Shown piece by piece: positions 17,360 through 34,954 of a stretch of 64,000 nucleotides of DNA. Each line of letters starts with the position of its first letter. Position 1 is the first letter of the stretch. The stretch comes from Prorocentrum cordatum. Lineage: Eukaryota; Sar; Dinophyceae; Prorocentrales; Prorocentraceae. The notes under the pieces were generated by a model. That model did no database searches, had not been told where the DNA came from, and saw nothing but the letters and a program-made list of their open reading frames with translations. Made by a program: the position numbers and the translations under genes. The stretch spans positions 1 to 64,000 of the forward strand of contig CAUYUJ010012069.1 in the NCBI GenBank assembly GCA_963575745.1, in the 5' to 3' direction.

Positions 17360-17878
<519 letters not shown>

Positions 17879-18045
17879 GGACAAGTAGGCGGACCAGGGT
17901 CCGTCCGCGAGGCGCACTGCGGTGCGACAACTCGCCAAACACTATTTGCGGCGGTGCAGCCATGAGATACGAGGGCGGGCAACAAACCCCCTCCCCCGGC
18001 GCAATGCGACAGACGCTACAGACGGCGGACAGACGGTGAAGATCT

Positions 18046-18105
18046 CACGTGTCAGACCGCGTGACGAAGAAGGCCCCAACAAGAAAGGCGACGTGCTGAC
18101 ACGTG
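18046..18105 (-). other. 3-prime UTR hairpin of the LINE
   Basis: CACGTGTCAG at 18046-18055 and its exact reverse complement CTGACACGTG at 18096-18105 form a 10-bp stem with a 40-base loop. The stem starts 1-2 bases after the ORF2 stop codon (18107-18109). LINE reverse transcriptases often recognise a 3-prime UTR stem-loop to prime cDNA, so this is a candidate recognition element. That role is inference. Confidence 0.55.
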
Positions 18106-18106
18106 G

Positions 18107-21100
18107 CTAGGCGGCTTGGCAGACCGCCAGTTGGGCGCTTGGCCGCAACGCGGCGCGCAGGGACGGGGCACCCCCCGCCCCCACGCCCTGACACCGTGGA
18201 CGCGGGGCCACGCGTACACACGGGCAGGCAGAGAGGAGGAGATTAGCGCGGGGCACCAGGCGGAGCGCCGCGGAGCGATGACAGCATAGCTTGGAGGGCG
18301 AGTGGCGGCGCAGCACCATCGGGCGAGGGCGTAAGCAGCTCGGCGAAGGCACGCCCGGCGCGGTGGAGGCGCTGGAGCAGAGGGCCTTGACGGGCTTGAG
18401 CAGCGGCAAGGTCGGCGGCGAGAGCAGCGCACCTCTGCTGCAGAGCGGCCATAGACTGGGACAGCTCGGTTTCGCGGTCGGTGAGGGGCGGCTGCTCAGT
18501 GCCTGCGGCCGGGGGCCTCGTGGCAGGGACGAGGTCATCGGTGCGCCTGGCCAGCCCTTGAGAGGCGACTGGAGGGTAACACGCGGTCCCAGGGCTGGAG
18601 CCGCTAGGGCCACGCCCCGTGAGGACGGAAGAGCCGCGTCCTCGCACCCAGCAACAGTGAAAGCGTGGACGGGGTGCGACGGCCTGACTGGCTCGGTGCC
18701 CTGCGGGGGGGCTAGAGCCGCCCCCGCGGGCTGGCGCTGGTGGGGGGACGGGGTGGGTGGCACGGTGGGACCAATCATGATGCCGTGCGGGGGCTCGGAG
18801 GTCGGCCGCGTGGTCGGGTGGCGTCTCGATGGAGCGGCATCGTCGGCAGCGTGGGGTGTCGGCGGGGCGTCGTCTATGCTGCCACTCAATCCGAGGGGAT
18901 CATAAAGGTCCTCGTCGGCGTCTTGACGGTGAGCGACATCATCATGTGGGTGCGATGTCGCTCTCGGTGGCGGAGTCGCGGTGGGCGTCGAGAGGTTGCC
19001 CGACGGGGCAGGGTTGGCGCTGGCTGGGCCGTCGTCCAAGAAGTCCAATCCCCCGCCGAAGCCGAACGGGTCGTCCTCCTGTTCATCGAGCATCGCCCGT
19101 TGGGCCTCGGCCCAGAGCTCATCCGGGTCTTGCGGGATGAATGGTCCAGCCGCGGGTGGTGCCTGGTCCAACAGCAGGGGGTTCGGTTCCATTTTGCTGA
19201 GTTCCGCTGCTGTAAACCCAGCCCTGCGGTGTGGGAGCGGCAGAGTACGGTGTCTGGGCTCGTAGATAGCGACAGCAACCCCATGAAGCACGGTCGCTTG
19301 GCGATGTCGTGTTTTGGCAGCTTCAACAATGTCGTCAGGAAGGTTGTGCGTGCGTGCCGCCGCTGTGGCAAGGGCGTCGGCCTGACGGTTGAACTCCTCC
19401 GCGATGGGCCCGATGAGCCCAAGGTCGATGCCCAGGTCTCCCAGGTGGCTGGCGATTTTTTCGACGCGAAACATGTTGGGCTTGGCCATAAAACATCGGT
19501 GGATCTTTTCCCAGAGCTCCGCGTGCGTGCCCTGCGGCGCTGGATGTCCGTCGATGATGCTTTGGAACCCATCGACCACCGCCTGGTTGTCCACGAAAAC
19601 GTGCACGGGCCGTTCGGCACATGCCGTAAGGTGGACAATGGCGAGGGTCTCCGCAACCTGGGCGTTCTGCGTTAGGCCGTGAACGCGTGCACTGTAGTTC
19701 ATGCGGTGGTCGATGCCGTAGTAGACGCCGTAACCCGCTCGTGCTAGCAATGGGATGGCTTGGTTGGTGCACGCACCGTCCGTGGCAGCGTAGACCCATG
19801 TCCAACCAGTGTCGTAGTCAAGGTAGGTGGTGTAGGTGTCCTGGGCTGAAGCCGCAGGATCACCCTCAGGGGAGGGCCGCGGAATGGGCTGTGGCAGCGG
19901 GTCCCTCGCGAGGTCGGCCTGCAGGTCGAGGAGGGCTGGGTCTTCGTCGAAGAGCCCGCAGTGTCTTGTGTGCGGCGGAAGACGGGCCCACTGGTCGTCA
20001 CTGATGAGGGTGGTGAGAGGGAGTCTTTCTCGGGCCCAGCACTTGCAGTCGCGGACAGTGTGCTCCTGAGTTTCCTCTTCCTCGTCGCAGTAGCGGCACA
20101 TGGGGCTGGGGTCTGCCGACGTGTTTGATCGGGATCGTCGCTGTTGGGTGTGGTCCCCGCCCGACAGGTAGTTCAGGAGGAGCGCCAGCTGCCAGGCAGT
20201 GCATTTGGCTGCTCCTTTAGTTCGCGCGAGCCACGTGCTGGCGAAGAGGTCAAGGCCCTGTCTGACAGAGGCGAGGTAGCCAAGGTCGTGTCGCCGTGGC
20301 TTGATCCTCCGCAGAAATGCCCTGCGTTGTGAGGCCCGCAGCATGTGCAGGAAGGCGTTTTGGGGTAAATTCAGCCAGCTGATCTGGCAGCCCCAGTCGT
20401 CGTACATGATGCCAAATGTGGGCCAGGTCCATCGGAGCTGCTGGAGCGACTGGACGAGTCGTCCGACGGGTCCTCCACCAAACAGGGTCTGGACGTGGTG
20501 TTGGAGGTCTCTGGCGAGCCCGCAGAGTGTAACGTCGCGGTTAACCTGTCGCCGCAGGCACAGGAATGCTTCACGCTGCGTGATGGCGTCGATCTCAAGG
20601 GCGTGTCCCGGGACGCACACGGCCATGAGAGTCCAGAACTCGACCCACTTGTTCCCCTTGGGGCGGATAGCCGCCTTGAGGGCGTGGTTGTAGGCAGTCT
20701 TGGCTGGGCCTGATGGTGCTTGAATGTCGGTGCCCGTGGTGCAGACGCTGGCAGCCAGGGAACGGGCGTGCCGCGCCTTGATAAGCATCGGCGATGGGAG
20801 CTTGCCAATGCGCGGCAGGCGGATAGTCGCCCTCCGTACACGGGCGTCTGCGGTGGCCGTGAGGTTAAGCGCGGCTGGAGCCGGCGCTGCCTCTGCGTTG
20901 ATGTAACTCCCGACGAGCTTGAAGGAATCGACCACACGTAGGGGGCGATCCGCCAGTGTGAGCTGGGTAACGGCGGCGTGAAGCTCGTCGGTGAGCGCCC
21001 ACCCTGCCACTTTACCAGGGTGAATGCGTTGACCTGAGAATCGATCAAACTTGGCGGTTTCGTCGAGAGATTTCTGCAGCTCAGAAGCGGTGTGGGTAGT

Positions 21101-24100
21101 GGAGTTGCTGTCGTCAACGAAGGTAGTGCTGAGTGATCGAGGAACGTATCGGTGCTGCCTCTTGGTCCACACGCACATGAGCAGCTTGATGTCGTCCAGG
21201 GACCACGAGCTGCCCTGGAGGTGACCGTTAGTCCTGGCCAGGTCCTTAGAGTACGCTCCGTTCATGCGGATGTAGCGTTTGTGGTGTCTGTAGAAATTTC
21301 GGCGGACAGTAACGATGTCTTGAGGGCACCCCGCGTGCAGCGCAAGGTTAAGACAGATGTCCGTGATGAGGTAGTCGAAGCACTTCTGTCGGTCAAGGGC
21401 AGCTCCAGCTAAGGGGAGGAGTAAAGCCCTGGCGTGTTCGATGCGCAGGGCGAGAGAGGTGCTGACATCCCCAATGGTGGCTTTGGGAACAGCGCCGAAG
21501 CTCGTGGCATGGGTCCATCCTTGCCGCCAGGTCGTGAGGCTGCGGTAGGCTGGCGCTTCCCACGCGTACATCCATACGGAAAGAACCGAGAGAAGTCGTT
21601 GGTCCGTCGGGAGTTCCCCTCGGCCTTTTCGGAGGCACGGGTTTGGCACGTGCAGGAGGGGCTCGGGGATGGTGCCAGTGCGTTGCATAGCACGTAAGAC
21701 GCTGGCGAAGAGGCGAAGGATGTCGTCGGGTAACTCCTTAGCCTCCTTAGTTGTCCAGCCGTCGAGTCCCCCCGCGCGGCGCGGTGAACGGGTGCGAATG
21801 AAGTGGATGAGTTGGTCGTCGGTGAGGTGGAAAGGGGCTGCTGGTGATGGCGTAGGCAGCTCTTGTCGGTATTCGTCGTAGAAGTCCGCCCACGTCGGCA
21901 TAGCTTCGGCATCATGGCCCGCGCGAGCGCGGTACCTGCCCAAGATGGGCTCCCAGGTGTCGACCATGAGCTTAAGCATGTCTTTGGTGTTGGCAACAAT
22001 GGCGTTGGCGGGGAGGGCGTCGGGAACCTGGGCAGGTGGTGGGTCACGAGTGTGGCCTTCGTCGTTGTCCGTGTCGAGCGAACTACCGTCGCTGGGGCTG
22101 AAGCCGCCGGCGTCGGTGTCGGCATCACTATCGTCCGTGCAAGCTTGGTCAGGGTTGAAGGCGGTGGTGTCGCAGTGGAGCTGTGCATCGTCGGGAGTGG
22201 TAGGCGTGCGGAGATACGCCGTGGGCGAGCAGTCGGCAGCCCGTGCGTATATGGCCGCCTTTCGCCCGCTTGGCTCGCGGACACCCTCAGCCCAGATCTT
22301 GATGCGTTCAGCTTTGGCTCGGTTTGCACGTCGCGCCAGCTCTGAGTCTAGGTTTTGGATCAGACGGTCTAGGTGCTCTCCGCGTGGTGCTGGCACGTCG
22401 GGGGCCCAGGCATCGGGAAAGGCCAGGAGGGCCGTGGGGCGCAGCTTGTGGCAGAGAAGGCGGGCCGCGGTCCACGTGCAGTCGATGCGTTGCGCCAGGT
22501 ACGGCGGGATAGCACGGCAGTCGATATGATGGTGCTGTCCGATGAAGCGAAGCTCGCAAAGTTGCCGATGGAGCTTGCGAAGGCGGTTCATGTGAATCGT
22601 GGAAGCTCCGTAGGTGGGAAAGGCGCGGGGGACGGCGGGTCGCTCCTCGAACGTGGGTGTGAGCCCGTGCATGGTAGGGGCCTTCTTTTTTGGGTGGTCT
22701 GGCGGTGGGGGCGGCAGGTCCCGCAGCCGGGTAAGATGGTACTCATGGCTGGCCTCGTTTGCCAGGGCGAACATGCGTTCCACATCGTCGCGTGTGTCAG
22801 CCTGCTCCATGCGGTCATGGTATCGCCCTGCGATGAGGGTCCCTAATGCCTGAAGTTCGTGGTCCTCATGAGCTCCGTCGTTAGGAGGGTAGGGCGTGGG
22901 GGCCAGAAGGCGTGGGGCCGTATGGTCAAGGCGGCTAAGGTCGAGTGTGACCTGCAGGCCAACATGGGACTTCGCTGGCAAGTCACGCAGATAGCAGAAG
23001 TCGGTGACAAGGGATCGCGCAGCTTGGTTGGCGATGATATAATCGATGCGCGAAGTGCGGGGGCACTTGGTGACGCGGTCCCAGTCAGGGATATTGCCAT
23101 ATGTGTGCATGGTGTGGTCTGGTGTGCCTTCAGCGACGTTAAACCATCCGTGCTGCATCATGTGCAGCAGATGTGGATTGTCGTCGATGTTCGTGTTGGC
23201 GTCCATGCAAATGAAATACGGGGCTGAGCCGACCCTCGCGGCGGCGCAATCAGCAAGCCGAAACAAATCGGTGCTGTCCCCTCCAGCGACCCCGTAGAGG
23301 CTCGCAATGTAGATCCCAGCGGGACCGTGGTTGTTTCGTCGCCGCCTGCGGCGGTGCTGGGTGCAGAGCGGGAGGAAGGCCTCGTGCCATCGTTTCTTGG
23401 CCTTGAGGGTGGCGATACAGGTCGCAGTGTCGTCGACGGTGGAGTCGACGATGGCGTCCTTAGAGAGGATGGCGACCCCCCCCGAGGCGCCGGTGTTGCC
23501 CTCGACCGTGTGGTCCGTGCCACCGTGAGCAGCTTTGCGCTGGGCTCGCGCCAGATCCAGGTCAGGTCCCAGACTGGCCTGATATCCTCCGTGGTGTGGA
23601 TTGGCGGCGTTGGTAGCGATGGCTTGCCTGGTAGGCTTGGCATGTCGGGTCTCCTGCAGTGCTATGACTGCGGCGTTGTGGTCGACACCCAGAGCGGTGA
23701 TGGTTGGCCAGTTCGCTGGGAGACTCGTGATGTTGAGGCTGACGAGGTGGATGGAGCGACCTGGCCCGTCTCCGTCGGTGGAGCTGGGGTTAGCACGCCC
23801 CGCACGGTGGAGGGCAGCCTGGCCCTCACCCAGGTAGAAGGCTTGGCCACAGTAGGAGCTCATGGCGTCGCGGCAGATTGGCTTGGACGGGGCTGAAGCC
23901 GCCGTCGGGCCAGAAGTATAGGCAAGGCATGGTCGACGCTGCGCCGGGGGGGGTTCATAAACATCAGCAAAACTGCCTCGAAAAATCCTCCTCACTCCTG
24001 TACCGTGGGGGACGGGGGGAGGAGAGGTGAGACGGCAGCAGAGGGAGAGGGAGGCGACTCCTCGATCCGTCCTGCCGCGAACAAGAACAAAAGCAAACCA

Positions 24101-27100
24101 GCGGCGGCAGCTCGGCGCGGCAGCGGCGCAGCGCGCGCGCACATACTGCGCACGCGACACCGCTGGTCCGTCCTGCGGCGGCGCGCCCGCCCCGTCAGTA
24201 CCGTGATGAGCAGCATCAGCTGGAACAGCTTGTTCGTGTGCGCCCTCTGCGCTCGCCTCGGGCGGTGGGCCCTGTGGCTGCGGCGGAGGACGCTCTGCCA
24301 GCGCGTCAGCCACCAGCTGGGCGTGGCGAGCGGCGCGGTCGGTGGCCTGGCGCTGAGCCTCATCCATGCCCGCTGCCGCGAGGCACGCGTTGCGGACAGG
24401 GCTGACTCCACGCGGGGCCGCCGCTGCCGCGGCAGCGGCTGAGGTGGCGGGGCCGCCGCCGTGGCTCAGAGGGGGCAGCGGTGAGCCGCCGCCGAAACCC
24501 GCCGCGAGGCCCTTGACGGAGTACTTGTGCTTGAAGGGGTCGAAGGTCGGCGCCTCGTCGAAGGGGGCGACAACGCGGGTGGGCGGTGGCAGCTCCTGGT
24601 CCGTGGACGGCGTCGGCTCGAGGTCGACCTGGCCAGGTTCGATGGCGCTGGCACCGAAACGTGGCACCACCTCGGGGGCTTGGCCATCAGCCTGAGTCTC
24701 GCGGGGCGGCGAGCTCGTGGAGCTCCCAGGGGCCTTGCGCGAGCTGTGGCGGCTGCAGGACCGGCTGCGCGGGACGCGCCCGCCCGTGTGGCGGTCACGT
24801 GGCGAGGTCGCCTGGGCGTTAGCGCGCGCAGAGTCCGCCCTGCTCGGGGAGCGGATCGGCGCTGTGCAGGGTGTTGGGCTGGGCTGGCGGGAGCCGCCTG
24901 TGCCGCCCGCCACCGAGGCTGCAGCCTGGTCAGGGTCGACGGCGTCGGGCCGGGGGCTGACGTGGTGGGCACTACCCTCGCTGTGCCGCGGGGAGGCGTT
25001 GTGGTGCGCCTGGGTGTGCGTGAGGACGAGCGGGACGAGCGGCTGCCGCTCGCGCTCAGGGGGGGCAGGTTTTGCCTGGGCAGGGCGCAGCGCTGCGGCC
25101 ACGTTTGGCGGGGGCGTGTGTTGGCGCGGTTGCCAGGCACGCACGTTCGCCTCGCGCCATCCTTCAGGGCGCCCTGTCCTGCCACGGCTTGGTGCAGCCC
25201 CCTGGGCTGAAGCCGCAGGGGTTACCACTGCGGGCTGGTTGCTGGCGGTGCTGTCGTGGCGGCCTGGGTAATGGCCCCAGGCACGCGTGGACCCTGGCAC
25301 GGGCGAGGTGGCCCGTGGGGGAGCCTGCGCGAGTGCACGCGGGTAGCCGATGACCGCTGGGTGCACCCTGGCGTGGGGGGCGTGGCCATAGCTGGAGGCG
25401 GCTGCTCCTGCCGCCGCGGGCCTGGCGCCAATGGGGCCACGGTGATAGGCGGCGCCCCCGCCGTACACCGCGCTGTCGCCTGTCGGGACGCGCGCGGGAG
25501 AGCGGTTGCGTGGCGTGCTCGGCTGACCTGCGTCGCGTTGGTCGCGCTGCTGGGTGCGCTGCTGGTGCTGTTGGTAGCGCTGCTGGTCGGCTCTCGAGAG
25601 CGGGCGGGTGTCGGGGAGGATGGGGGGCACGTCGGGCCGCCGCCAGCCCTGATAGACGTGCTCGAAGGCATGGTCTGGGTAGGTCTCCCCGACGGGTGAG
25701 TAGCGCCGCACATGCTCCACGTAGTCAATGTTCTGCGGCTCGGGGAGCACCGTGATGTTCACAGCTCGCTGGTGCGCTGGTCCATAGAGACAGAAGCTAC
25801 CACGGTTGCTGCGGTCGTGGTTCAGCTCGGCTTCGGTCGTGGCACGGCTCACCATGGCGTCGCAGAGGCGCATGTCGTAGTCGAGAGCTTGAGGCCCAGG
25901 GCCGCCCTCGGCATCCCAGTACAGTACCACATCTCGCCAGCGGGTGCGGGTAGTGTGGATGCGCTCGGCGATAGACTCGCAGACGGTCCTGACTGTGACA
26001 CGATCCCTATGCATGTTGGTGATGGCTAGGGAGTAAGGTCGGCGGACCGTTTTGTTGAAGATGAAGTCCTCCTTGAGGGCCTGGTGAGGGCCGAAGAGCA
26101 CGCAGCCTTCCCTCCACAGCGGTTGGTCGGGAGACGGGTCTTCAGGCATCCCCGTTCCTGTGAACCCTGGTGGCCGCCTCGTGCCGTCGGGCAATCCCTG
26201 CTTGAGGACGCGACGCGGCCTCGGTGGTAGATACCATTGACCCTGGTAACCTGCTTGGCCTGGTTGTGGAGGCTCCCCCCCGGGGCCTGAAGGCGCTCGG
26301 GGGGGTTCCTTGAGGTCGTGCTGGGCTGGCGCGTTGCCGTATTGGCGGGCGAGGATGTGCGGAGGCATCCCTGTGGCACGGACGTCGAACAGGCTGTGCG
26401 GACGAGGCGGATGAGGGCATCTGCTGGAGAGGCAGCATGTGTCGGAGTCCCTGTTGTCGGTGCTGTACGCACACGTCCAGCTGTTGCATGAGTAGTCCGT
26501 GGACCAGTCCATAAGTGCACGTAGTCCGCTGAGGGAGCAGTCTGGGCACGTTGGTTGGCCTGAGGTGCCGAGCTGCGCGTTGCGGCGGGCAGCACAATAC
26601 TGACAGCATTGGAATCGGCACTGTAGGCAAGTCCAGCGTCCTGGTAGGGGCGGGAGCGCTTGCTCGTCGGTGACTGCGTCGTCTGGGTGGGGTCGGGGTC
26701 GATCCCACAAGGGCCAGACGTCGGCGAACCAGGACTGGCCTGTAGTGCGGACCACCTCCGCGGGGAGGCGAGCGTCGTCAGCATGGCGCTCGATCCACTG
26801 GGGCCCCAGGTCCGCTGGGATCATGACCGTGCGCCAAGTGTCGTCCGCCTTGACGTGGACTTGGGTCGGTGCCCAGAGCCTGGTAGTGGTATCGCCATGG
26901 TCGTGGTGAAGGATGACCCAGCCGTCGCGACCCGCAACCGCAGGGTCGATAACGCGGTGGCCCACGACGGTCGCCCCCCACGGTAAGTAGGCGCCGTCGT
27001 GGTGCTCGCCCGGGTCAAGCCAGACCTCGATGCCAGGGGCGTTGACACGGGCCCGCACATCGCGGACGTGGAAGGCGAGGACGTGGTAGGCGGTCGGCTC

Positions 27101-30100
27101 CTCTTCCGTCTCGATGTGCTCCCACGTCTCGATGTCGCTGTTGTCCGAGGTGGAGTTTCCGCCGCTCTGCCGTGACGAACGCGAGGCGGATCGCCGTGGG
27201 CGGGCATGTCCTCGGGCGAGGGCGGCGGCCGCGCTGATGAGGGACGGCGTACGACGGTCGTCGGCTCCCGATGTCGTCGATGAGCGGTCTGGACTGTGTC
27301 CCAGGGCGGCACCTGCCTGATAGGTGTGCGATGGGCCAGACGCGGCCCCAGGGCTGGAGCCGCTGGGGCGCGGCGCACGTGCGTCGGACTGCCCCCGCAC
27401 GGGGACGGCCTGCAAGCCAGTGTACACCAGGTCGATCAGTGGCTGCGGGTCCAGCTGGAGCTTGCGAAGCGAGGCGCGCGGACGGGGCTGGTTGGGGTCG
27501 GCCCTGGTGGCTGCTTCGGTGTCGTAGTGCTGTGTAGCCCATGCTCGCGCTGCCTCTGGCGAGTATAGTGCCTGCGGCGGTGGCCACGCTGCCGCGATGT
27601 CCAGCCGGCGCCAGGTGTTAGCTTCCTGGTCGCGGGCTTCAGCCGCCTCGCGGAGGTCTGGGTGATCGTAGCCGGCAATGTGGAGGGCGTGCGCACAGTC
27701 GCCCATGCCATAGGCTTGTGGTAGGGCACGGCACCTGGAGGCAGCTTCAGTGGGGGCACACCAGTCCATGCGGATGAGGAGGCCCAGGACCCGCGGGTAG
27801 ATGAGGCGCGCTCCGTGAGCCTCCCCTTTCACGAAGTTGTGCCAGTTCTCACCGCGCGGCGGTTTGGTAGCCTCGCACATCCAGAGCGCGATGGGTCCCC
27901 ACGCGAGGGTGTCGTCTTCGAGGCTGCAGGGCGGGTGAGGCGGCACTGCGTACCACGCGGCCAGCGACGGGTGCACACTCACGTACGTGCGGCCAACATT
28001 TGTGGCGGTTCGACCCTTCGCTTCACGGCGGGGGCCCGGCAGGAGGTGACCTCCGTTGAAAGCGAGACGAGCCGCAAGGTCACCGCGGGTCCCGTGCCAG
28101 AAGACCGTGGGCGTGTCAGTGGTGGGTTGACGGAGGTCCCACGTGAGGTAGGGGAAGATCGTCTCGCCTGAGTTCCCGCCCGAGTCTTCCAGCACCCAAG
28201 TGAGTCGGTTCGGGGGCCTCTGCATGATGTCAGTCCACGGCGCCAACGCTTGGAGCGTTGGATCATGGGTGAATCGAGGATGGTCGTGGAGTCGCAGGGC
28301 GTCTTTGATGTCCTCTGTAGTCACGCCACTGTTACCAAGCGCAAAGCCGTTCTGGTACAGGGAGGTGAGGATGCTCGTCGGCGGCACGGGGACCGCTGGG
28401 TCGCGCTGGATGGTGTTGCGTAAGTTGCGCGTCGGTGGCCTGAGGGCTGGGTGGGGCGTACCAGGGCCTGGAGGCGCCTGGGGCCTGGCGGGTGATGCGT
28501 AGCGTGCTCGCCGTCGTGGTGGTTGGGTGTCCATGTCGGAAGAGGAACCACGAGCATCTGCATGTCGGAAGATGGACCACGGGCTGTCGAGGGTGCGCTC
28601 ACGTGTTTCCCTTGCCTCGGCGTCGCTGGCCTGAGCTGTGGCGTCTTCGTGAGTCGGCGGGTTACCATAAGCCGCGCCGCTTATGGGGCCGTCTCGCGGG
28701 GACGGGCTGGTCGACCGTGGTGTGACAGACGAGGCTCGCGATACCGCGGCAGTGACTTCGACAATGGCGGCGGTGGTGGCGGTGGTGACATCGGCGACTG
28801 CGGCGGCAACTGCAGCAGCATAGTGTTCCTGTAGCAGCGGGTGTCGAAGAGAGTGCACGTGCTGGCTCTCGGGTTCGTCGGGATGCGTGCGCGGCATTGT
28901 GTGTGTGGCTTCATCGCGCGGCCTCCTGCTCGGTTGGCAACAGCGGAGGCACCACTGGGCCGCGGGTGAGTCCAGGGCGCGCGCACAGATGCGGGCTCCT
29001 ACGTGTCCGACGGCTCCTTGAGCGAGAAGTTTGGCGCCGACCAGGAGAAGGCCGCAAACCACTCCGCCTGTGGCAATAGCTCCGAGTTTGCCGCTGGCCC
29101 ATTTCAGGGCACCCCCGAGGCCAGACCCGACTGCGCTGGCTCTGCCCGAGACGATGTCTCTGAGTTTGGCACTGGTCCACTTGAGAATACCCCACAAGGC
29201 GGGCGTGGCGTTGTATGCCGTTGTGCGTCGGGGCGTAGTGGACACGGATGGGCCTGGTGCCGCAGCTTCACGTCGTCGTCGCTGCCGGTAGCTGGGGTCT
29301 CGGCTCGGTGTCGGCAGGTACCCGTCGATCTGGTCCTTGTACGGCATGGCTACCACGATGGCATACGTGGCCACGAAGAGGCAGATGAGACAGCCGCAGC
29401 GTCGGGAGGCCGCTGCGCTGTGCGGGGCCTCGTAGGAGCCGCTGGCGTCAGGGCTCGCGTCCTCGATGGGGTCGTTGTCGATGCCAGCCTGCCAGTGGTC
29501 GACGGCGCTGGAGTTGGAGTCAGTCGCGTTAGCACGGCAGACAAGGGTGCGGGGCGGGGTCCTGCCACCTGAGGTCTGAAGACGCCCAGATCCAGCCAAT
29601 GCTGCAGCGGGGCTGAAGCCGCCACTGCGCGGGCTGGTGAGAGCTGGCGGTGCAGTGGAATGGCTTGTCTCGTCGGCGGCAGTGACGCCTTCGGCGTCGC
29701 TGAGCTGTGCGCTGGGGTCGGCCTGGGCCGAGTTGTTGGGCGGACTGCTGTGCGACAGGGGGCGCCCTGTGTAGGGTTCGCTGTCACGGTCGCGCTGGGC
29801 CGTGTCTCCTGGCGGTGTCGTGCCGTCGCGATCCTGGGTTTCCATGTCGTGGATGGAGTCGTTCTGGCTATCGTCCGACACGTGGAACGAGTCCAGGGAT
29901 ATGTTGCTGATATCGCTGGCCGCGATGTGCTGGAGCAGAAGCGGTTCGGCGTCGGCCGCGGGCTGGTCACACGTGGCGTGCTGGGCGAGGGGGCCAGCTG
30001 GCGGTGGTAGGTTTAGCGGTTCCATCGGTGCCGCGGCGAGCTCCGCCTCGACAAGCGGCTGCATGTCTGGCGGGTGGTGCAGGATCGCATCCGCGAGATA

Positions 30101-31201
30101 CGCCAGGGCGTCTTGGTCGGGTGGAGGGAGGCCTCTTGGCAGCAAGGCGTGGGCCCGTGAGAGGTATGGCGGCAGTGGTGCCGCGAAAGCCTCAGGGCCG
30201 ACGAGCTGGGCACGAGCGCCCTGGTATTCCAGAAGGAGGCCAAAGTAGCGGGTGGGGTACTCGTGGCTGCCCTGGATACGAGTGAGGTTGCGGTTGGTGC
30301 GCTGTCTGTCGGGGCCCGCTCTGTGCCAGATATCCTCGCACATGTCGAACGCGGTGCGCTGGCGCAGGGCGTCGTTTTTCTCCTCGGAATCCTCCTGGAA
30401 AAAGTGGTCGTACTGTGGCAGATGGAGCGTCGCCAGGATGTGCGGGACGCAGTCCTCGAGCCATGCCCAGAACACGTCCTGATGGTCCTCACCTGGTGCC
30501 CACGCCGCGGCGCACGGTATGAGCCGTGCTCGGATCATCATCAGGTGCCAGAAAGCGGGGTCCTCCTCGGGTTCGCCCCTGGCGCACAGAGGGGTAGTGG
30601 GACCCGTGGGGCTAAAGCGGGGCACGACAGCGGGGCTGAAGCCGCCACTGCGTGCCTGGGCCTTGCCAGCGGCCCCGTCGAGGATGTGCTGCACGACGGT
30701 CGAGGACAAGCTGAGGGCAGACTGCGATGCATGTGTCGTAGTTGACGAGGGCGTGCTCGTAGGAGACATGCTGGTACTCGCCGTAGCCGTCGTAGTAGCC
30801 GTCGGAGTCCCAGGGGGGCAGCGCGTGGGGCGGGGCCCCTGGTGCTGCTCAAGCCAGGCGCTCGCGATGGCGCCCAGCGGCCCGGTGCCGCACGGACCCG
30901 CGGCGGCGGTGCTGTTCACGATCGGGTCCAAAATGGCGCAGTGATCGTATTTGTAGATGCTGTCATCGTAAAGGTAGAAGAGCGTCCCACGTTCAGCGTG
31001 TCGCAGGAAAACCTCTCCTCCGTGCTGAGGCGCACCGCCTGAAGACGGGTGTGCTCCAGCTAGCGAGGGGAGGGCCAGGCTGCAGGCAAGGCGCCACATG
31101 ATGGCGAGGCCTGGCGGGCGGCGCGAGCGATGAGCCGAAAGCTGCATGTCAGCACACGTCCTCAAATACCCCTGAATGCTCATGTACATTGCTACAATCA
31201 C
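18107..31201 (-). CDS. LINE ORF2 polyprotein: AP-endonuclease, reverse transcriptase, zinc knuckle, RNase H, with a very long N-terminal extension
   Basis: About 4,360 residues, numbered from the GTG at 31201; the first ATG is at 31189, and an ATG at 31099 opens a signal-peptide-like start (MWRLACSLALPSLAGA). The frame is open up to the TGA at 31361-31363. Landmarks: hydrophobic helix near 600-620 (CLICLFVATYAIVVAMP); possible ADP-ribosyltransferase-like patch near 1030-1130 (FWHGTRGD, His 1036; RTYVS, Tyr 1073); cysteine-rich CxxC region 1520-1600; disordered Pro/Ser/Ala-rich linkers; AP-endonuclease 2484-2760 (LQETR, MDANTN, SRIDYII, SHVG); reverse transcriptase about 3135-3420 with motif A DRQKCFDYL and motif C FVDDSN; CCHC knuckle near 3697 (CRYC...H....C); RNase H 3797-3945 (TDGAC, AETLA, VDNQAV, RQADALA). 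A Pro-rich tail ends at a TAG. All LINE catalytic signatures appear present. Translation may need TGA readthrough or reinitiation. Confidence 0.85.
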   Translation of the reverse strand: MIVAMYMSIQGYLRTCADMQLSAHRSRRPPGLAIMWRLACSLALPSLAGAHPSSGGAPQHGGEVFLRHAERGTLFYLYDDSIYKYDHCAILDPIVNSTAAAGPCGTGPLGAIASAWLEQHQGPRPTRCPPGTPTATTTATASTSMSPTSTPSSTTTHASQSALSLSSTVVQHILDGAAGKAQARSGGFSPAVVPRFSPTGPTTPLCARGEPEEDPAFWHLMMIRARLIPCAAAWAPGEDHQDVFWAWLEDCVPHILATLHLPQYDHFFQEDSEEKNDALRQRTAFDMCEDIWHRAGPDRQRTNRNLTRIQGSHEYPTRYFGLLLEYQGARAQLVGPEAFAAPLPPYLSRAHALLPRGLPPPDQDALAYLADAILHHPPDMQPLVEAELAAAPMEPLNLPPPAGPLAQHATCDQPAADAEPLLLQHIAASDISNISLDSFHVSDDSQNDSIHDMETQDRDGTTPPGDTAQRDRDSEPYTGRPLSHSSPPNNSAQADPSAQLSDAEGVTAADETSHSTAPPALTSPRSGGFSPAAALAGSGRLQTSGGRTPPRTLVCRANATDSNSSAVDHWQAGIDNDPIEDASPDASGSYEAPHSAAASRRCGCLICLFVATYAIVVAMPYKDQIDGYLPTPSRDPSYRQRRRREAAAPGPSVSTTPRRTTAYNATPALWGILKWTSAKLRDIVSGRASAVGSGLGGALKWASGKLGAIATGGVVCGLLLVGAKLLAQGAVGHVGARICARALDSPAAQWCLRCCQPSRRPRDEATHTMPRTHPDEPESQHVHSLRHPLLQEHYAAAVAAAVADVTTATTAAIVEVTAAVSRASSVTPRSTSPSPRDGPISGAAYGNPPTHEDATAQASDAEARETRERTLDSPWSIFRHADARGSSSDMDTQPPRRRARYASPARPQAPPGPGTPHPALRPPTRNLRNTIQRDPAVPVPPTSILTSLYQNGFALGNSGVTTEDIKDALRLHDHPRFTHDPTLQALAPWTDIMQRPPNRLTWVLEDSGGNSGETIFPYLTWDLRQPTTDTPTVFWHGTRGDLAARLAFNGGHLLPGPRREAKGRTATNVGRTYVSVHPSLAAWYAVPPHPPCSLEDDTLAWGPIALWMCEATKPPRGENWHNFVKGEAHGARLIYPRVLGLLIRMDWCAPTEAASRCRALPQAYGMGDCAHALHIAGYDHPDLREAAEARDQEANTWRRLDIAAAWPPPQALYSPEAARAWATQHYDTEAATRADPNQPRPRASLRKLQLDPQPLIDLVYTGLQAVPVRGQSDARAPRPSGSSPGAASGPSHTYQAGAALGHSPDRSSTTSGADDRRTPSLISAAAALARGHARPRRSASRSSRQSGGNSTSDNSDIETWEHIETEEEPTAYHVLAFHVRDVRARVNAPGIEVWLDPGEHHDGAYLPWGATVVGHRVIDPAVAGRDGWVILHHDHGDTTTRLWAPTQVHVKADDTWRTVMIPADLGPQWIERHADDARLPAEVVRTTGQSWFADVWPLWDRPRPHPDDAVTDEQALPPLPGRWTCLQCRFQCCQYCAARRNAQLGTSGQPTCPDCSLSGLRALMDWSTDYSCNSWTCAYSTDNRDSDTCCLSSRCPHPPRPHSLFDVRATGMPPHILARQYGNAPAQHDLKEPPRAPSGPGGEPPQPGQAGYQGQWYLPPRPRRVLKQGLPDGTRRPPGFTGTGMPEDPSPDQPLWREGCVLFGPHQALKEDFIFNKTVRRPYSLAITNMHRDRVTVRTVCESIAERIHTTRTRWRDVVLYWDAEGGPGPQALDYDMRLCDAMVSRATTEAELNHDRSNRGSFCLYGPAHQRAVNITVLPEPQNIDYVEHVRRYSPVGETYPDHAFEHVYQGWRRPDVPPILPDTRPLSRADQQRYQQHQQRTQQRDQRDAGQPSTPRNRSPARVPTGDSAVYGGGAAYHRGPIGARPAAAGAAASSYGHAPHARVHPAVIGYPRALAQAPPRATSPVPGSTRAWGHYPGRHDSTASNQPAVVTPAASAQGAAPSRGRTGRPEGWREANVRAWQPRQHTPPPNVAAALRPAQAKPAPPERERQPLVPLVLTHTQAHHNASPRHSEGSAHHVSPRPDAVDPDQAAASVAGGTGGSRQPSPTPCTAPIRSPSRADSARANAQATSPRDRHTGGRVPRSRSCSRHSSRKAPGSSTSSPPRETQADGQAPEVVPRFGASAIEPGQVDLEPTPSTDQELPPPTRVVAPFDEAPTFDPFKHKYSVKGLAAGFGGGSPLPPLSHGGGPATSAAAAAAAAPRGVSPVRNACLAAAGMDEAQRQATDRAARHAQLVADALAERPPPQPQGPPPEASAEGAHEQAVPADAAHHGTDGAGAPPQDGPAVSRAQYVRARCAAAAPSCRRWFAFVLVRGRTDRGVASLSLCCRLTSPPPVPHGTGVRRIFRGSFADVYEPPPAQRRPCLAYTSGPTAASAPSKPICRDAMSSYCGQAFYLGEGQAALHRAGRANPSSTDGDGPGRSIHLVSLNITSLPANWPTITALGVDHNAAVIALQETRHAKPTRQAIATNAANPHHGGYQASLGPDLDLARAQRKAAHGGTDHTVEGNTGASGGVAILSKDAIVDSTVDDTATCIATLKAKKRWHEAFLPLCTQHRRRRRRNNHGPAGIYIASLYGVAGGDSTDLFRLADCAAARVGSAPYFICMDANTNIDDNPHLLHMMQHGWFNVAEGTPDHTMHTYGNIPDWDRVTKCPRTSRIDYIIANQAARSLVTDFCYLRDLPAKSHVGLQVTLDLSRLDHTAPRLLAPTPYPPNDGAHEDHELQALGTLIAGRYHDRMEQADTRDDVERMFALANEASHEYHLTRLRDLPPPPPDHPKKKAPTMHGLTPTFEERPAVPRAFPTYGASTIHMNRLRKLHRQLCELRFIGQHHHIDCRAIPPYLAQRIDCTWTAARLLCHKLRPTALLAFPDAWAPDVPAPRGEHLDRLIQNLDSELARRANRAKAERIKIWAEGVREPSGRKAAIYARAADCSPTAYLRTPTTPDDAQLHCDTTAFNPDQACTDDSDADTDAGGFSPSDGSSLDTDNDEGHTRDPPPAQVPDALPANAIVANTKDMLKLMVDTWEPILGRYRARAGHDAEAMPTWADFYDEYRQELPTPSPAAPFHLTDDQLIHFIRTRSPRRAGGLDGWTTKEAKELPDDILRLFASVLRAMQRTGTIPEPLLHVPNPCLRKGRGELPTDQRLLSVLSVWMYAWEAPAYRSLTTWRQGWTHATSFGAVPKATIGDVSTSLALRIEHARALLLPLAGAALDRQKCFDYLITDICLNLALHAGCPQDIVTVRRNFYRHHKRYIRMNGAYSKDLARTNGHLQGSSWSLDDIKLLMCVWTKRQHRYVPRSLSTTFVDDSNSTTHTASELQKSLDETAKFDRFSGQRIHPGKVAGWALTDELHAAVTQLTLADRPLRVVDSFKLVGSYINAEAAPAPAALNLTATADARVRRATIRLPRIGKLPSPMLIKARHARSLAASVCTTGTDIQAPSGPAKTAYNHALKAAIRPKGNKWVEFWTLMAVCVPGHALEIDAITQREAFLCLRRQVNRDVTLCGLARDLQHHVQTLFGGGPVGRLVQSLQQLRWTWPTFGIMYDDWGCQISWLNLPQNAFLHMLRASQRRAFLRRIKPRRHDLGYLASVRQGLDLFASTWLARTKGAAKCTAWQLALLLNYLSGGDHTQQRRSRSNTSADPSPMCRYCDEEEETQEHTVRDCKCWARERLPLTTLISDDQWARLPPHTRHCGLFDEDPALLDLQADLARDPLPQPIPRPSPEGDPAASAQDTYTTYLDYDTGWTWVYAATDGACTNQAIPLLARAGYGVYYGIDHRMNYSARVHGLTQNAQVAETLAIVHLTACAERPVHVFVDNQAVVDGFQSIIDGHPAPQGTHAELWEKIHRCFMAKPNMFRVEKIASHLGDLGIDLGLIGPIAEEFNRQADALATAAARTHNLPDDIVEAAKTRHRQATVLHGVAVAIYEPRHRTLPLPHRRAGFTAAELSKMEPNPLLLDQAPPAAGPFIPQDPDELWAEAQRAMLDEQEDDPFGFGGGLDFLDDGPASANPAPSGNLSTPTATPPPRATSHPHDDVAHRQDADEDLYDPLGLSGSIDDAPPTPHAADDAAPSRRHPTTRPTSEPPHGIMIGPTVPPTPSPHQRQPAGAALAPPQGTEPVRPSHPVHAFTVAGCEDAALPSSRGVALAAPALGPRVTLQSPLKGWPGAPMTSSLPRGPRPQALSSRPSPTAKPSCPSLWPLCSRGALLSPPTLPLLKPVKALCSSASTAPGVPSPSCLRPRPMVLRRHSPSKLCCHRSAALRLVPRANLLLSACPCVRVAPRPRCQGVGAGGAPSLRAALRPSAQLAVCQAA
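18585..18611 (-). repeat. LINE hairpin H1 (core GGCTGGAGCC)
   Basis: Core at 18593-18602, unpaired G at 18603. Arms 18585-18592 and 18604-18611 pair over 8 positions with one T-G wobble and one C-A opposition (a G-U pair in the element-sense RNA). In ORF2 it encodes an LAAPAL-type stretch. Confidence 0.7.
18698..18731 (-). repeat. LINE hairpin H2 (core GGCTAGAGCC)
   Basis: Core at 18710-18719, unpaired G at 18720. Eleven perfect pairs join 18698-18709 to 18721-18731 with one bulged T at 18702. Confidence 0.8.
19835..19864 (-). repeat. LINE hairpin H3 (core GGCTGAAGCC)
   Basis: Core at 19844-19853, unpaired G at 19854. Arms TCCTG/CAGGA pair perfectly and GGTG/CACC extends the stem past a single bulged T at 19860: nine pairs. 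It encodes AASAQ. Confidence 0.75.
20868..20888 (-). repeat. LINE hairpin H4 (core GGCTGGAGCC)
   Basis: Core at 20873-20882, unpaired G at 20883, perfect 5-bp arm AGCGC/GCGCT. It encodes APAPAA. Confidence 0.65.
22085..22117 (-). repeat. LINE hairpin H5 (core GGCTGAAGCC)
   Basis: Core at 22096-22105, unpaired G at 22106. Arms 22085-22095 and 22107-22117 pair at 10 of 11 positions (one T-G wobble, one T-T mismatch). It encodes GGFSP. Confidence 0.8.
23886..23906 (-). repeat. LINE hairpin H6 (core GGCTGAAGCC)
   Basis: Core at 23891-23900, unpaired G at 23901, perfect 5-bp arm GACGG/CCGTC. It encodes AASAP. Confidence 0.65.
25199..25221 (-). repeat. LINE hairpin H7 (core GGCTGAAGCC)
   Basis: Core at 25205-25214, unpaired G at 25215, perfect 6-bp arm CCCCTG/CAGGGG. 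It encodes AASAQ. Confidence 0.75.
27345..27369 (-). repeat. LINE hairpin H8 (core GGCTGGAGCC)
   Basis: Core at 27352-27361, unpaired G at 27362, perfect 7-bp arm GCCCCAG/CTGGGGC. It encodes GSSP. Confidence 0.8.
29604..29628 (-). repeat. LINE hairpin H9 (core GGCTGAAGCC)
   Basis: Core at 29611-29620, unpaired G at 29621. Arm GCAGCGG/CCACTGC pairs at 6 of 7 positions; the C-A opposition becomes G-U in element-sense RNA. It encodes GGFSP. Confidence 0.75.
30621..30656 (-). repeat. LINE hairpin H10 (core GGCTGAAGCC)
   Basis: Core at 30634-30643, unpaired G at 30644. Arms 30621-30633 and 30645-30656 pair at 11 of 12 positions with one bulged A at 30627 and one C-A opposition. It encodes GGFSP. 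Confidence 0.8.
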
Positions 31202-31360
31202 GCCCCCTGCAAGACTACGGGTGTCCCTACACCAGATAGCTTGCGCGTGCTGCTGCCAAAACAGACATGAGGTGACAAGAAAGAGATACGACGCGAAGAG
31301 GGGAGAGATGCCTCTGAAGGCGCTTCCTCGGAGGGCTGAGGCGGGCTCTCTGAGGCACCT

Positions 31361-31363
31361 TCA
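31361..31363 (-). promoter_or_regulatory. Single in-frame TGA between ORF1 and ORF2
   Basis: ORF1 ends CCC TAT TGA. The same frame then continues AGG TGC CTC with no other stop for 53 codons to the GTG at 31201 and on through ORF2. The spacer therefore reads open from ORF1 into ORF2, which suggests programmed readthrough or reinitiation. Confidence 0.7.
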
Positions 31364-33940
31364 ATAGGGTTCCTGGGTGGCCCGACCCTTGTCCTTGCCT
31401 TTGTCGGCCCCTGGGGGCCCCGTCCCTGGGGTGACCTGGCCTGGCTGGTCGATCCAACTGCAGGCAGCCACGGGTTCGGCGGCCGCTGCAGCTTCCTCCT
31501 TCTTAGTTTCCAGAGTGGCCACTTGTGGCAGGTGGATGGTGCCTCCCGTGAGGTGCCCGAGGAGGGTCTGGATGTCGCCGCGCAGTGCAGCGGCGTCGGC
31601 GGTTGCCGTCTGTTGCTGGGTGACGACGGTGGCAAGCCCCCGTTCCAGCCCTGAAACGTGCTCCGTGAGTGTGGCCTGGGAGGAGAGAACGCCCGCAAGC
31701 TGCACCTGCATGTTATCCACCGTGTTGGCTAGCAGCTCGTGCTGCTGTTCCATGTGCTGGATGCGGGTCGTGGCAGCATCGGGCGGTTTAGAGGCCGATG
31801 CGAAGCGCTCGCCGAAGGTGTTGAGTTCGTGGGAGGCCACGCTGTATTCATCACCTGATGAAAGGATCTCGACGTCGACGACGTCGCCTGGTACTTCGGC
31901 GGCTGTGGCAGCGTCGCCTTCGGTGTGGCCCCCACCTTCTGCCGCCGCCGTGCCAAGCCAGGAGTCATGGCCACCTGATCCTGGGGCGGCCATCGGTTCA
32001 GCGGCTCCGTCCGTGCCGTGCGGGGGTGCAGAGGAGCTGCGGCCTGGGGCGCAGGGTGACCTTGCGTGCGGCGTGGCGTCGCGTTTCCCGCTGGAGGAGC
32101 GGTGGCGCTTGGATGAAGGCTCCTCCTTGGGGGTCAGGAGCGGTGCGACGCCCTTGCCTTTGGGCGTGGCAGTCATGAGGTCGCGGAGGTAGGGGCTCTG
32201 GGCCGCTTTGGTGAGGAGTGTGCCGGTGGCGGGGCTAAAGCCGCCACCACCGGCTGGCGGCGTCACAGGCTCTGTGATGGTGGTAGGCGTGACGATGGTA
32301 ACGTTGTCCCGCTTCGGCACCACCTCAGCCAGCGGGGCCTCGGTGATGCTCCACGGGATGGGGCACCCCGCGACCTGCACCGTATAGGTGAGTGGGGGCC
32401 GATGAGCGCGCACTAAGGCAAACTGGGCCGCAGTGGCTGGGTCCCAGGCGGTGTGGTAGACCTCACAGTCCCATTTAACGGACGGGCCCGTGAGAGTCTT
32501 GGCGAGCTGGGTCAGCGTGGCGTGGCGTGCCGCAATGCCAGTGATGCGGTAGCGCGTCTTGGCGAGGGTAGCCTCGCAGCCGCGGATGCTGACAGCAGCG
32601 GCCTTGGCGACGTCGGACCCCCGTGGAACACGGATCCCCAGTAGGCCTGACTTGCCGTGCCTGACGACTCCCAGGGCCTTGAACTCCACCGACTTCTGGA
32701 ACGCGTCTGCCATCGTGATGGGCTGGTCCTCAGGGAACCAAACGGTCTGATACTTGTCGGCGGTGGGCTCGTCTGCACCTACGTTGCTGAGGTCGTAGGT
32801 GGCACCGAGTTGCCCTGATCCCGCCAGGACCTTGTCGACCGCTTGGAGACTGACGCCGAAGGTGGCAGCCAGGGACCTCTTTCCGACGCCCGATCCAAAC
32901 CTGCCTAGGCTTTTGCAGGGTTCGAGGATGGTGACGGCTTTAAAGTTGCCGTGGAAGAGGGCCTTGAAGGTGTCCTGAAGCTGACTATCGAGCTCCTGGC
33001 GGCGAGCGTCTTTCTTGGACTCCCTGTGCTTTTGGTTTTGGCGCGCCTTGTCCTGTGGAGCGGAGTCCCCTCGAAAAGGGCCCTTGGCGCGTGGACCACC
33101 GTTCACGGGGGCACCTCCCGAGAACTGGTCCTCGAAGGCCTGGTGCATGGAGGGGACTGCGGCAATGGCCTCGGTCTCGTGTATGGTCGCCCGAATCCAG
33201 CAGACGTGGTCGGCAGGGTCGATGGTGGCGACGGCTACCTTTTCCGTGCAGGCGACCTCCTTGGTGCCCAGCTGGTACACGGTCACGGGGACGTGCGTGT
33301 GGACCACTTTGGGCGCCTTGGGGTGACGCTTCAGGACGGGGACGGCGAGCTCGGTACCGACGTAGTTGTCGTTTTTCGGGCCCATGACAGCAATCGCGAG
33401 CTGACCCGTGGCTCGCTTGCCCTGCTCGAGGTGGTGTTGCAGCAGCCGTTCACCACTCTCGTAATCGTGGAGGCTGATGCTGGGCTTGTATGTCTTGCCG
33501 TCGTCAGGTGAGGCGGGTTCGGCAAGGACAGGGACCTTCCAAAAGGCAGGGTCCAAGGTGATGAATTGGGTGTCCGCAGCCTGAAGACGTGCGGAACCCG
33601 CTGGTGGGTGTGATGTGTCACCGCCAGTGCGCTTAGGCTTGCTGCGCTGGTGATGATCGAGCGTGTAGCTAATCTGGTTGGCGGCGCACATGCGGATCAG
33701 GGCGCTGCCAAGCTTCTTCGTGTTGGACTTGTGCATGTCGTACGTTTCCTGGAGCTCGTCCGCGTTCAGTTCGGCGAGCCCGTTGTAGGCGGCCGTGGGG
33801 CGGTCAGACCCCGCTTGCTTGAACGCTGCGATGCAGTCCTGCTTGCGTTGAAGGAGAGAACCTTCAGCAGCAGGGCGCGTGGGGCGGGAGCTCGGAGGCT
33901 GCTTAGAAGAGCGACGGCGCTCCGGCTTCTTGGGGGCCAT
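31361..33940 (-). CDS. LINE ORF1 protein with C-terminal coiled coil
   Basis: 859 residues from ATG at 33938-33940 (MAPKKPERRR); a GTG lies four codons upstream. The N-terminus is strongly basic (RRRSSKQ...RPTRP), as expected for nucleic-acid binding. The middle is globular, with repeated aromatic-hydrophobic blocks and two similar segments around 33500 and 32450, each containing a WIR/WD-type patch. A Pro/Gly linker carrying GGFSP (hairpin H11) precedes an acidic, Ser-rich stretch. Residues about 729-805 (MEQQHELLANTVDNMQVQL onward) form a coiled coil, typical of LINE ORF1 oligomerisation. No RRM, CCHC or esterase domain is obvious. It likely binds element RNA; this is inferred from position and composition. 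It lies in the same frame as ORF2, separated by one TGA. Confidence 0.75.
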   Translation of the reverse strand: MAPKKPERRRSSKQPPSSRPTRPAAEGSLLQRKQDCIAAFKQAGSDRPTAAYNGLAELNADELQETYDMHKSNTKKLGSALIRMCAANQISYTLDHHQRSKPKRTGGDTSHPPAGSARLQAADTQFITLDPAFWKVPVLAEPASPDDGKTYKPSISLHDYESGERLLQHHLEQGKRATGQLAIAVMGPKNDNYVGTELAVPVLKRHPKAPKVVHTHVPVTVYQLGTKEVACTEKVAVATIDPADHVCWIRATIHETEAIAAVPSMHQAFEDQFSGGAPVNGGPRAKGPFRGDSAPQDKARQNQKHRESKKDARRQELDSQLQDTFKALFHGNFKAVTILEPCKSLGRFGSGVGKRSLAATFGVSLQAVDKVLAGSGQLGATYDLSNVGADEPTADKYQTVWFPEDQPITMADAFQKSVEFKALGVVRHGKSGLLGIRVPRGSDVAKAAAVSIRGCEATLAKTRYRITGIAARHATLTQLAKTLTGPSVKWDCEVYHTAWDPATAAQFALVRAHRPPLTYTVQVAGCPIPWSITEAPLAEVVPKRDNVTIVTPTTITEPVTPPAGGGGFSPATGTLLTKAAQSPYLRDLMTATPKGKGVAPLLTPKEEPSSKRHRSSSGKRDATPHARSPCAPGRSSSAPPHGTDGAAEPMAAPGSGGHDSWLGTAAAEGGGHTEGDAATAAEVPGDVVDVEILSSGDEYSVASHELNTFGERFASASKPPDAATTRIQHMEQQHELLANTVDNMQVQLAGVLSSQATLTEHVSGLERGLATVVTQQQTATADAAALRGDIQTLLGHLTGGTIHLPQVATLETKKEEAAAAAEPVAACSWIDQPGQVTPGTGPPGADKGKDKGRATQEPY
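32222..32254 (-). repeat. LINE hairpin H11 (core GGCTAAAGCC), in ORF1
   Basis: Core at 32233-32242, unpaired G at 32243. Arms 32222-32232 and 32244-32254 pair at 10 of 11 positions with one C-A opposition. It encodes GGFSP, but in ORF1 instead of ORF2. Confidence 0.8.

Positions 33941-34954
<1,014 letters not shown>

Follow-up and report, generated by a model that had tools for sequence, protein, structure and literature searches.

The dispersed packaging signals of the single-stranded RNA phage MS2, which form the coat-protein operator family, combine an (x)xYA loop motif with an A in the 5' bulge (PMC6281560; PMC4751978). For ZfL2-1 and ZfL2-2, which are long interspersed nuclear elements (LINEs) of the stringent type, a LINE-encoded protein is reported to recognize its own RNA via a stem-loop with a specific loop (PMC4176376). 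The selection of LINE RNA by LINE proteins, and its assembly into a ribonucleoprotein (RNP), are understood mainly in terms of cis preference and 3' tails (PMC4176376). Here we describe a giant LINE of Prorocentrum cordatum whose RNA contains 16 hairpins of one common design. The element lies in a stretch of 64,000 nucleotides (contig CAUYUJ010012069.1, positions 1 to 64,000), denoted as the window, and is organized as follows.

About 16 kb, minus strand: the giant LINE, between two (AG)n microsatellites of the window
34094..34271, strand unspecified: (AG)n microsatellite on the 5' side of the LINE
17647..17876, strand unspecified: (AG)n microsatellite on the 3' side of the LINE
31361..33952, minus strand: open reading frame (ORF) 1, 863 amino acids, candidate hairpin binder
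18107..31201, minus strand: ORF2, 4364 amino acids

The LINE resembles MS2 in having many stem-loops with a common apical motif along one RNA, here 16 hairpins, and the LINE loop UYYA fits (x)xYA in 16/16 cases, together with a single 5' bulged base. There are also differences. Three base pairs separate the bulge from the loop in the LINE hairpins, whereas the MS2 operator has two, and the host element is a LINE without a known coat protein, with about one site per 1.2 kb. In contrast with ZfL2-1 and ZfL2-2, where the stem-loop is located in the 3' tail and bound by ORF2, the 16 hairpins run through both ORFs: all of them lie inside ORF1 or ORF2, and the 3'-most one is upstream of the ORF2 stop, while no search was aimed at an additional stem-loop in the 3' tail. 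Non-autonomous partners commonly share the tails of stringent-type LINEs. In pairs of short interspersed nuclear elements (SINEs) and LINEs, and in HAL1 or HeT-A-like cases, a shorter element likewise shares the ends of the autonomous LINE and is probably moved by it; the partner described below differs from those in adding internal hairpins of the LINE design on mostly unrelated sequence. Among the literature matches listed, the titles and the beginnings of the abstracts did not describe such a hairpin system.

Design and covariation of the hairpins

An earlier note on this DNA reported a family of at least 11 hairpins with a fixed core. All 11 cores were present where it had placed them, as GGCTRRAGCCG on the plus strand with complementary arms, and the family proved to be real but larger, as a relaxed scan added five hairpins with the unpaired C at 33589, 31047, 29584, 28476 and 26295 of the minus strand. 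In the element sense, the core consists of an unpaired C, G-N-C, a U-Y-Y-A loop and G-N'-C inside paired arms, where N and N' covary. The middle pair was G-C in 11 hairpins, C-G in two, U-G in two and U-A in one, which rules out a fixed GGC core. The bulge is C and the loop is UYYA in 16/16 hairpins, the loop variants being UUCA (10), UCCA (4), UUUA (1) and UCUA (1). The hairpins are listed in the order in which they occur along the RNA.

33571..33597, minus strand: h33589, core CGTCTTCAGGC, middle pair U-G; ORF1, codon phase 0; kept in 4/4 aligned copies
32225..32251, minus strand: h32243, core CGGCTTTAGCC; ORF1, phase 2; same hairpin in another copy (L076)
31029..31055, minus strand: h31047, core CGTCTTCAGGC, middle pair U-G; start of ORF2, phase 1
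30626..30652, minus strand: h30644, core CGGCTTCAGCC; phase 2
29603..29629, minus strand: h29621, core CGGCTTCAGCC; phase 2; kept in 3/4 aligned copies, with one loop change in the fourth
29566..29592, minus strand: h29584, core CGTCTTCAGAC, middle pair U-A; phase 0; missing from four other aligned copies
28458..28484, minus strand: h28476, core CGCCTCCAGGC, middle pair C-G; phase 1
27344..27370, minus strand: h27362, core CGGCTCCAGCC; phase 2
26277..26303, minus strand: h26295, core CGCCTTCAGGC, middle pair C-G; phase 1; lower stem with one A-C mismatch; loop change in 1/4 copies
25197..25223, minus strand: h25215, core CGGCTTCAGCC; phase 1; pairs with low probability in 161-nt context
23883..23909, minus strand: h23901, core CGGCTTCAGCC; phase 1; weaker lower stem in four other aligned copies
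22088..22114, minus strand: h22106, core CGGCTTCAGCC; phase 2; one C-A mismatch, with a U-A pair in its place in five other copy rows
20865..20891, minus strand: h20883, core CGGCTCCAGCC; phase 1; exact 34-mer found 1220 times in the genome
19836..19862, minus strand: h19854, core CGGCTTCAGCC; phase 1
18702..18728, minus strand: h18720, core CGGCTCTAGCC; phase 1
18585..18611, minus strand: h18603, core CGGCTCCAGCC; phase 1; pairs with low probability in 161-nt context

On the sense strand of the LINE, 16/16 occurrences of C-GNC-UYYA-GN'C had at least 5 of 6 arm pairs when G-U was counted. The antisense strand of the LINE contained no core, and the three cores in the rest of the window all had unpaired arms, in agreement with the single orientation and the lack of paired cores outside the LINE that had been noted before. 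The arms differ between copies, with CG and GC found in either order at one pair position. Over the inner five arm pairs and the core, the 16 hairpins contained 118 Watson-Crick pairs, 7 G-U pairs, 3 A-C mismatches and no other mismatches, and the predicted hairpin energies ranged from -10.4 to -22.1 kcal/mol.

To compare these values with chance, we shuffled the LINE while keeping its dinucleotides (n = 200), which gave a mean of 0.67 cores (max 4) and 0.015 paired cores (max 1) against the 16 observed. At the six inner arm pairs of the 16 LINE rows, 88/96 were standard pairs, whereas 5000 shuffles gave a mean of 50.5 and a maximum of 63, none being as high. The arms are complementary as had been claimed, although not perfectly so in every copy, given the three A-C mismatches.

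We then aligned the 16 LINE hairpins with four hairpins of the partner element without gaps (20 rows, two of the partner rows being tandem-duplicate copies). In this alignment, 86.4% of the cells pair compared with 59.5% after shuffling, and the covariation score was 0.645 compared with 0.148 in shuffled alignments (0/500 reached it) and 0.100-0.191 in slid registers. Both sides change in 9/11 pairs, and the remaining two pairs are invariant. Considering that just 5/20 rows form the last, outermost pair of the 8-bp arm, the lower stem comprises about 5-7 pairs. When the covariance model was run on both strands of the 64 kb, the 16 LINE hairpins, which belong to its 20 training rows, scored 27.8-37.0 bits and everything else scored at most 14.3 bits. 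The covariation to which the earlier note had pointed is upheld, and the model separates its 16 training matches from the rest of the window.

Constraint on the RNA

The hairpins occupy all three codon phases, with 2, 9 and 5 hairpins in phases 0, 1 and 2, and not two phases as previously stated. We compared LINE copies in which the 500-nt surroundings were 72-96% identical to the window, omitting h29584, which the other copies do not have. Within the remaining 15 hairpins, third codon positions had changed at 11/451 (2.4%), compared with 1342/8077 (16.6%) in the 200-nt flanks; over all positions, the changes were 33/1354 inside the hairpins and 2484/24225 in the flanks. The four copies without h29584 differ from the window at several positions of that hairpin simultaneously, and the site may be newly arisen or lost.

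Since the UYYAG of the core contains the acceptor YAG and dinoflagellates use spliced-leader trans-splicing, the hairpins could serve or hide splice acceptors, either in cis or in trans. We consider such a processing role highly improbable. A G follows the AG in only 4/16 hairpins, the 12 upstream bases are a paired arm with no regular pyrimidine tract, and splicing within the ORFs would disrupt reading frames that are under purifying selection between LINE copies (dN/dS of about 0.12 in ORF1 and about 0.06 in the reverse transcriptase (RT) part of ORF2, dN/dS being the ratio of nonsynonymous to synonymous substitution rates). Taken together, the covariation, the restriction to the sense strand, the constraint on third positions, the use of three phases and the recurrence in the partner make an RNA fold under selection in the LINE well supported, and uphold the earlier proposal that the fold, which resembles a protein-recognition hairpin, and not the peptide is conserved.

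Occurrence of the core in the genome

To examine the core outside the window, we searched the genome (4.13 Gb in 21,875 contigs). Exact GGCTRRAGCCG occurred 27,525 times and a reversed control pattern 30,131 times, which means that the core by itself shows no genome-wide enrichment. Among the first 100 genome places listed, 50 were in element-bearing stretches of contigs C2, C21 and C37, and the 50 isolated ones were all examined. The isolated set comprised 52 rows, of which two duplicate other places (L021 = L007 and L028 = L003, neither paired). At least 5 of 6 arm pairs were formed at 2/50 isolated places, close to the roughly 5% that a hand estimate based on this base composition gives for the formation of 5 of 6 pairs, and the arms were unpaired at 48/50. 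Paired arms were present in 11/11 GGC-core hairpins of the window LINE and in 98/101 rows from element loci, which overlap in part and represent 33 distinct sequences. The earlier note had named a genome-wide search that finds the core with random arms at similar density as a test that could refute the fold, and the 50 isolated places are a sample of that test. A 34-mer spanning h20883 had 1220 exact copies in the genome, while its control had none.

Two isolated places deserve mention. L023 has paired arms and RT-like ORFs by eye, yet it matched neither element. At L003/L028 (the same place, C1:1868939), the flank resembles a dinoflagellate spliced-leader relic.

The same sample bears on the possibility that a host RNA-binding protein acting in export, stability, translation or silencing binds the hairpins, the element having multiplied a host recognition site. 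The conserved unpaired letters imply a sequence-specific reader without saying whose it is, and ORF1 is without a recognized RNA-binding domain, both of which would suit a host protein. However, with 2/50 isolated cores paired, a host transcript class was not seen in this sample, and the LINE matched no Rfam family (in 17500-34300 of the window, four matches at E<=1, every one far under the gathering score). We therefore regard a host reader as unlikely.

A partner element with the same hairpin design

Within the window, the hairpins are confined to the LINE as the earlier note had proposed, but elsewhere in the genome they are also found in a partner that shares the LINE ends. This partner of about 7 kb lies between two LINE copies on contig C2 (L010:8035-10000 and L011:1-5100, about C2:406541-413620). 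Its 3' end matches that of the LINE over about 350 bp and the microsatellite next to it, at 86-91% identity among the copies seen, and the two 5' ends have about 40 nt in common. In a BLAST comparison of the rest of the partner with the LINE, only two stretches of about 40 bp were matched, at a duplicated hairpin resembling h18720, and protein similarity between the two elements was not found. The partner family is abundant, with 116 matches (95 of 47,180 candidates scored).

The partner hairpins are located at C2:407708, 409352, 409466 and 411544, with gaps of about 1.2-2.1 kb save for the 114-bp duplicate. Of three further copies for which a longer stretch was read, L040 and L042 contained a fifth kind of hairpin and L041 did not, and some partner copies contain damaged hairpins. 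To have a test that depends less on the training rows, we also built a covariance model from five partner rows alone, two of which are versions of one hairpin. When it was applied to the window, the top eight matches were sense-strand LINE hairpins, seven of them below E 0.05; at E<=10, all 16 LINE hairpins were among 46 matches, three of them partial, with other places mixed in below rank 8. Since the partner retains the design although most of its sequence is unrelated, the need that it shares with the LINE is likeliest to be recognition by the LINE machinery.

The duplicated hairpin, similar to h18720 over about 40 bp, would also fit an origin at the DNA level, in which palindromic inserts spread or template switches left footprints without function. 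The alignment with P0010, an ORF2 homologue with 44-46% identity, is of the same kind at the three comparable places: h22106 falls opposite a gap in P0010, and at h20883 and h19854 the residues are dissimilar and adjoin a gap. Nevertheless, the arms are mostly unrelated yet paired, substitutions at third positions are suppressed, and the hairpins have a single orientation. A mobile palindromic insert would have one common arm sequence, and the arms differ. Hence an origin of this kind seems to us very unlikely, and the earlier dismissal of a spreading palindrome holds for most arms, the duplicated partner hairpin aside.

The partner interior contains many short tandem repeats and Ala/Ser/Pro/Thr frames, and the partner copies examined are located beside LINE copies and tracts of (CT)n. 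In two partner copies, long open frames were discarded because they were mostly due to runs of N. The partner ORF has 986 codons, with dN/dS of 0.23-1.1 in the last 443.

Spacing along the RNA

The gaps between successive hairpins are 1346, 1196, 403, 1023, 37, 1108, 1114, 1067, 1080, 1314, 1795, 1223, 1029, 1134 and 117 nt. Without merging, the probability of so small a largest gap was 0.003. When sites less than 450 nt apart were merged, a threshold picked after the data were seen, the hairpins formed 13 clusters 1244 +/- 209 nt apart (coefficient of variation 0.17, P ~2e-4). The hairpin spacing is quasi-regular, at about 1.2 kb. The largest gap (22106-23901) spans the endonuclease motifs of ORF2, and candidates for a missed hairpin inside it were weak and unrelated and were rejected.

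The spacing corresponds to about 400 codons, which could suggest that the hairpins pause ribosomes at the domain linkers of the 4364-aa protein. The predicted energies given above are compatible with pausing, and h22106 stands alone between the first endonuclease and RT motifs, in a linker that is absent from P0010. However, the partner retains its hairpins though the tested segment of its ORF is weakly constrained (dN/dS up to 1.1), and stability suffices for pausing, so that an invariant bulge and loop would not be needed. Translation control is in our judgment improbable.

Proposed recognition by an element protein

Computation gave the fold, its selection, its strand, its spacing and the partner. 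Invariant unpaired letters on stems of free sequence point to a hairpin that is read by a protein. The reading that we favor, with somewhat better than even confidence, is that the hairpins are recognition elements read by a protein of the element, likeliest the ORF1 protein, for RNP assembly or cargo marking, and that the partner exploits them. That there is a binder, which protein it is and that it serves RNP assembly or the choice of cargo are what we infer here.

From the bottom up, each site would consist of a lower stem whose sequence can vary, one bulged C on the 5' side and an upper stem of three pairs (G-C, a free pair, C-G) that is capped by a U-Y-Y-A loop. A single RNA-binding protein of the element, most likely the ORF1 protein, would read the bulge and the loop at each site. 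With sites every ~1.2 kb, several protein molecules could coat and compact the 16-kb RNA, and the coating might single out the LINE RNA, as the element's own, for reverse transcription. With both ends and four to five like sites, the non-autonomous partner would then ride on the LINE machinery.

Several results weigh against this reading. Although no shuffle reached the covariation score, the count of pairs with both sides changed (9 compared with 7.1 in shuffled alignments) was reached by 29/500 shuffles. Two of the 16 hairpins, h25215 and h18603, have low pairing probability in 161-nt context, and the arm pairing probability is only 0.45 for h33589 and 0.60 for h31047. The ratio of G-U to A-C, 7 to 3, favors the sense RNA weakly, on too few cases to decide. 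In the four other aligned copies mentioned above, h29584 is missing and h23901 has a weaker lower stem. The partner hairpins were not clearly slower than their flanks (21/777 compared with 336/9634, rows below 88% identity being omitted), which neither helps nor refutes because the partner copies are young, and the partner's duplicated hairpin is not fully independent because it is similar in sequence to h18720. The late choice of the 450-nt threshold also counts here. A known RNA-binding domain was not found in ORF1 or its homologues. The peptides of the ORF1 homologues P0007-P0009 (40-46% identical) fit neither ORF1 hairpin, and the gap at h22106 and the residues at h20883 and h19854 in P0010 are likewise unfavorable. 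Finally, the LINE bulge is C in 16/16 hairpins, whereas that of MS2 is A. The LINE hairpins may act like packaging signals, but with a different bulge base and no known coat protein.

More tentatively, and with rather less than even confidence, the LINE and its satellite could share a quasi-periodic, operator-like hairpin code by which an element protein builds a structured, perhaps particle-like RNP. Such packaging-signal assembly in a cellular retrotransposon would, on the same tentative view, be independent of RNA viruses, and the xxYA loop with a 5' bulge would be convergent.

An explicit, repeated and covarying recognition code on LINE RNA would make selectivity, stoichiometry and trans-mobilization testable per site. 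If a LINE protein indeed reads the hairpins, packaging-signal logic would reach from RNA viruses into cellular retrotransposons, and there would be one route to compacting and copying a 16-kb RNA in a dinoflagellate genome in which elements of this kind abound.

Coding regions and copies of the LINE

Motifs of ORF2 were read by eye in the translation: endonuclease from ~23752, RT at ~21604-20999, a zf-RVT-like motif at 20152-20039 and an RNase H-like motif at 19879-19646. Their order is that of a LINE, with the endonuclease upstream and RNase H downstream of RT. The corresponding profile and sequence matches were weak (RVT_1 at E 0.23 and zf-RVT at E 0.17, both below the cut-off, and RNase H1 at E 0.13). 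In the N-terminal part of ORF2 (residues ~1-2400, window ~24000-31201) nothing was matched by Pfam; a Cys-rich stretch is visible there by eye, as is a stretch that looks ADP-ribosyltransferase-like. Codons 1-900 of ORF2 are less constrained, with dN/dS of 0.30-0.35 across copies. For ORF1, Pfam had no match at E<=0.001 and the PDB none that was convincing, and a single-sequence structure model of its residues 300-600 had a mean pLDDT (predicted local distance difference test score) of 40.6, too poor to use. Ten window ORFs outside the LINE had no Pfam match at E<=0.001.

The LINE is multicopy and dispersed with constraint on its coding regions (103 RT places scored out of 9547 candidates in the genome), and other RT families are plentiful in the same genome (25,237 first-look candidates, 150 scored). 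In C21:5001-45000, successive LINE copies stand head to tail, about 16.25 kb apart. These copies, together with the flanking (AG)n tracts, suggest that the LINE inserts into its own target repeat.

Homologues and phylogenetic range

In public data, seven ORF1 homologues were found at E<=0.001 among 8000 scored candidates. The comparison was made at the protein level, and peptides were judged by eye. P0003, P0004 and P0006 (89, 73 and 59% identical to ORF1) have peptides that fit the core at both ORF1 hairpins. At the first hairpin, they have SARLQ with A, T or P as the next residue, attainable via the free base N' alone; at the second, they have GGG[F/S]SP, attainable via a free loop base. P0005, which is partial and 97% identical, fits the core at the first ORF1 hairpin. 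As the more distant ORF1 homologues P0007-P0009 and the ORF2 homologue P0010 do not fit the core at the two and three positions compared, the hairpin system looks limited to a lineage.

With the whole ORF2 as length reference, no homologue with endonuclease, RT and RNase H was found at E<=0.001 among 1475 scored candidates; P0010 was obtained with a shorter query. RT- or ORF1-related loci were not confirmed in viral and bacterial/archaeal contigs. Divergent LINE families of the same genome were sought via P0009, which listed 50 ORF1 places (164,679 candidates), and both places inspected belonged to the window's own family. P0005 is named in the database as a protein of a Myxococcales metagenome-assembled genome, and it is 96-97% identical to the LINE ORF1 over the covered part; it most likely represents dinoflagellate contamination of that assembly.

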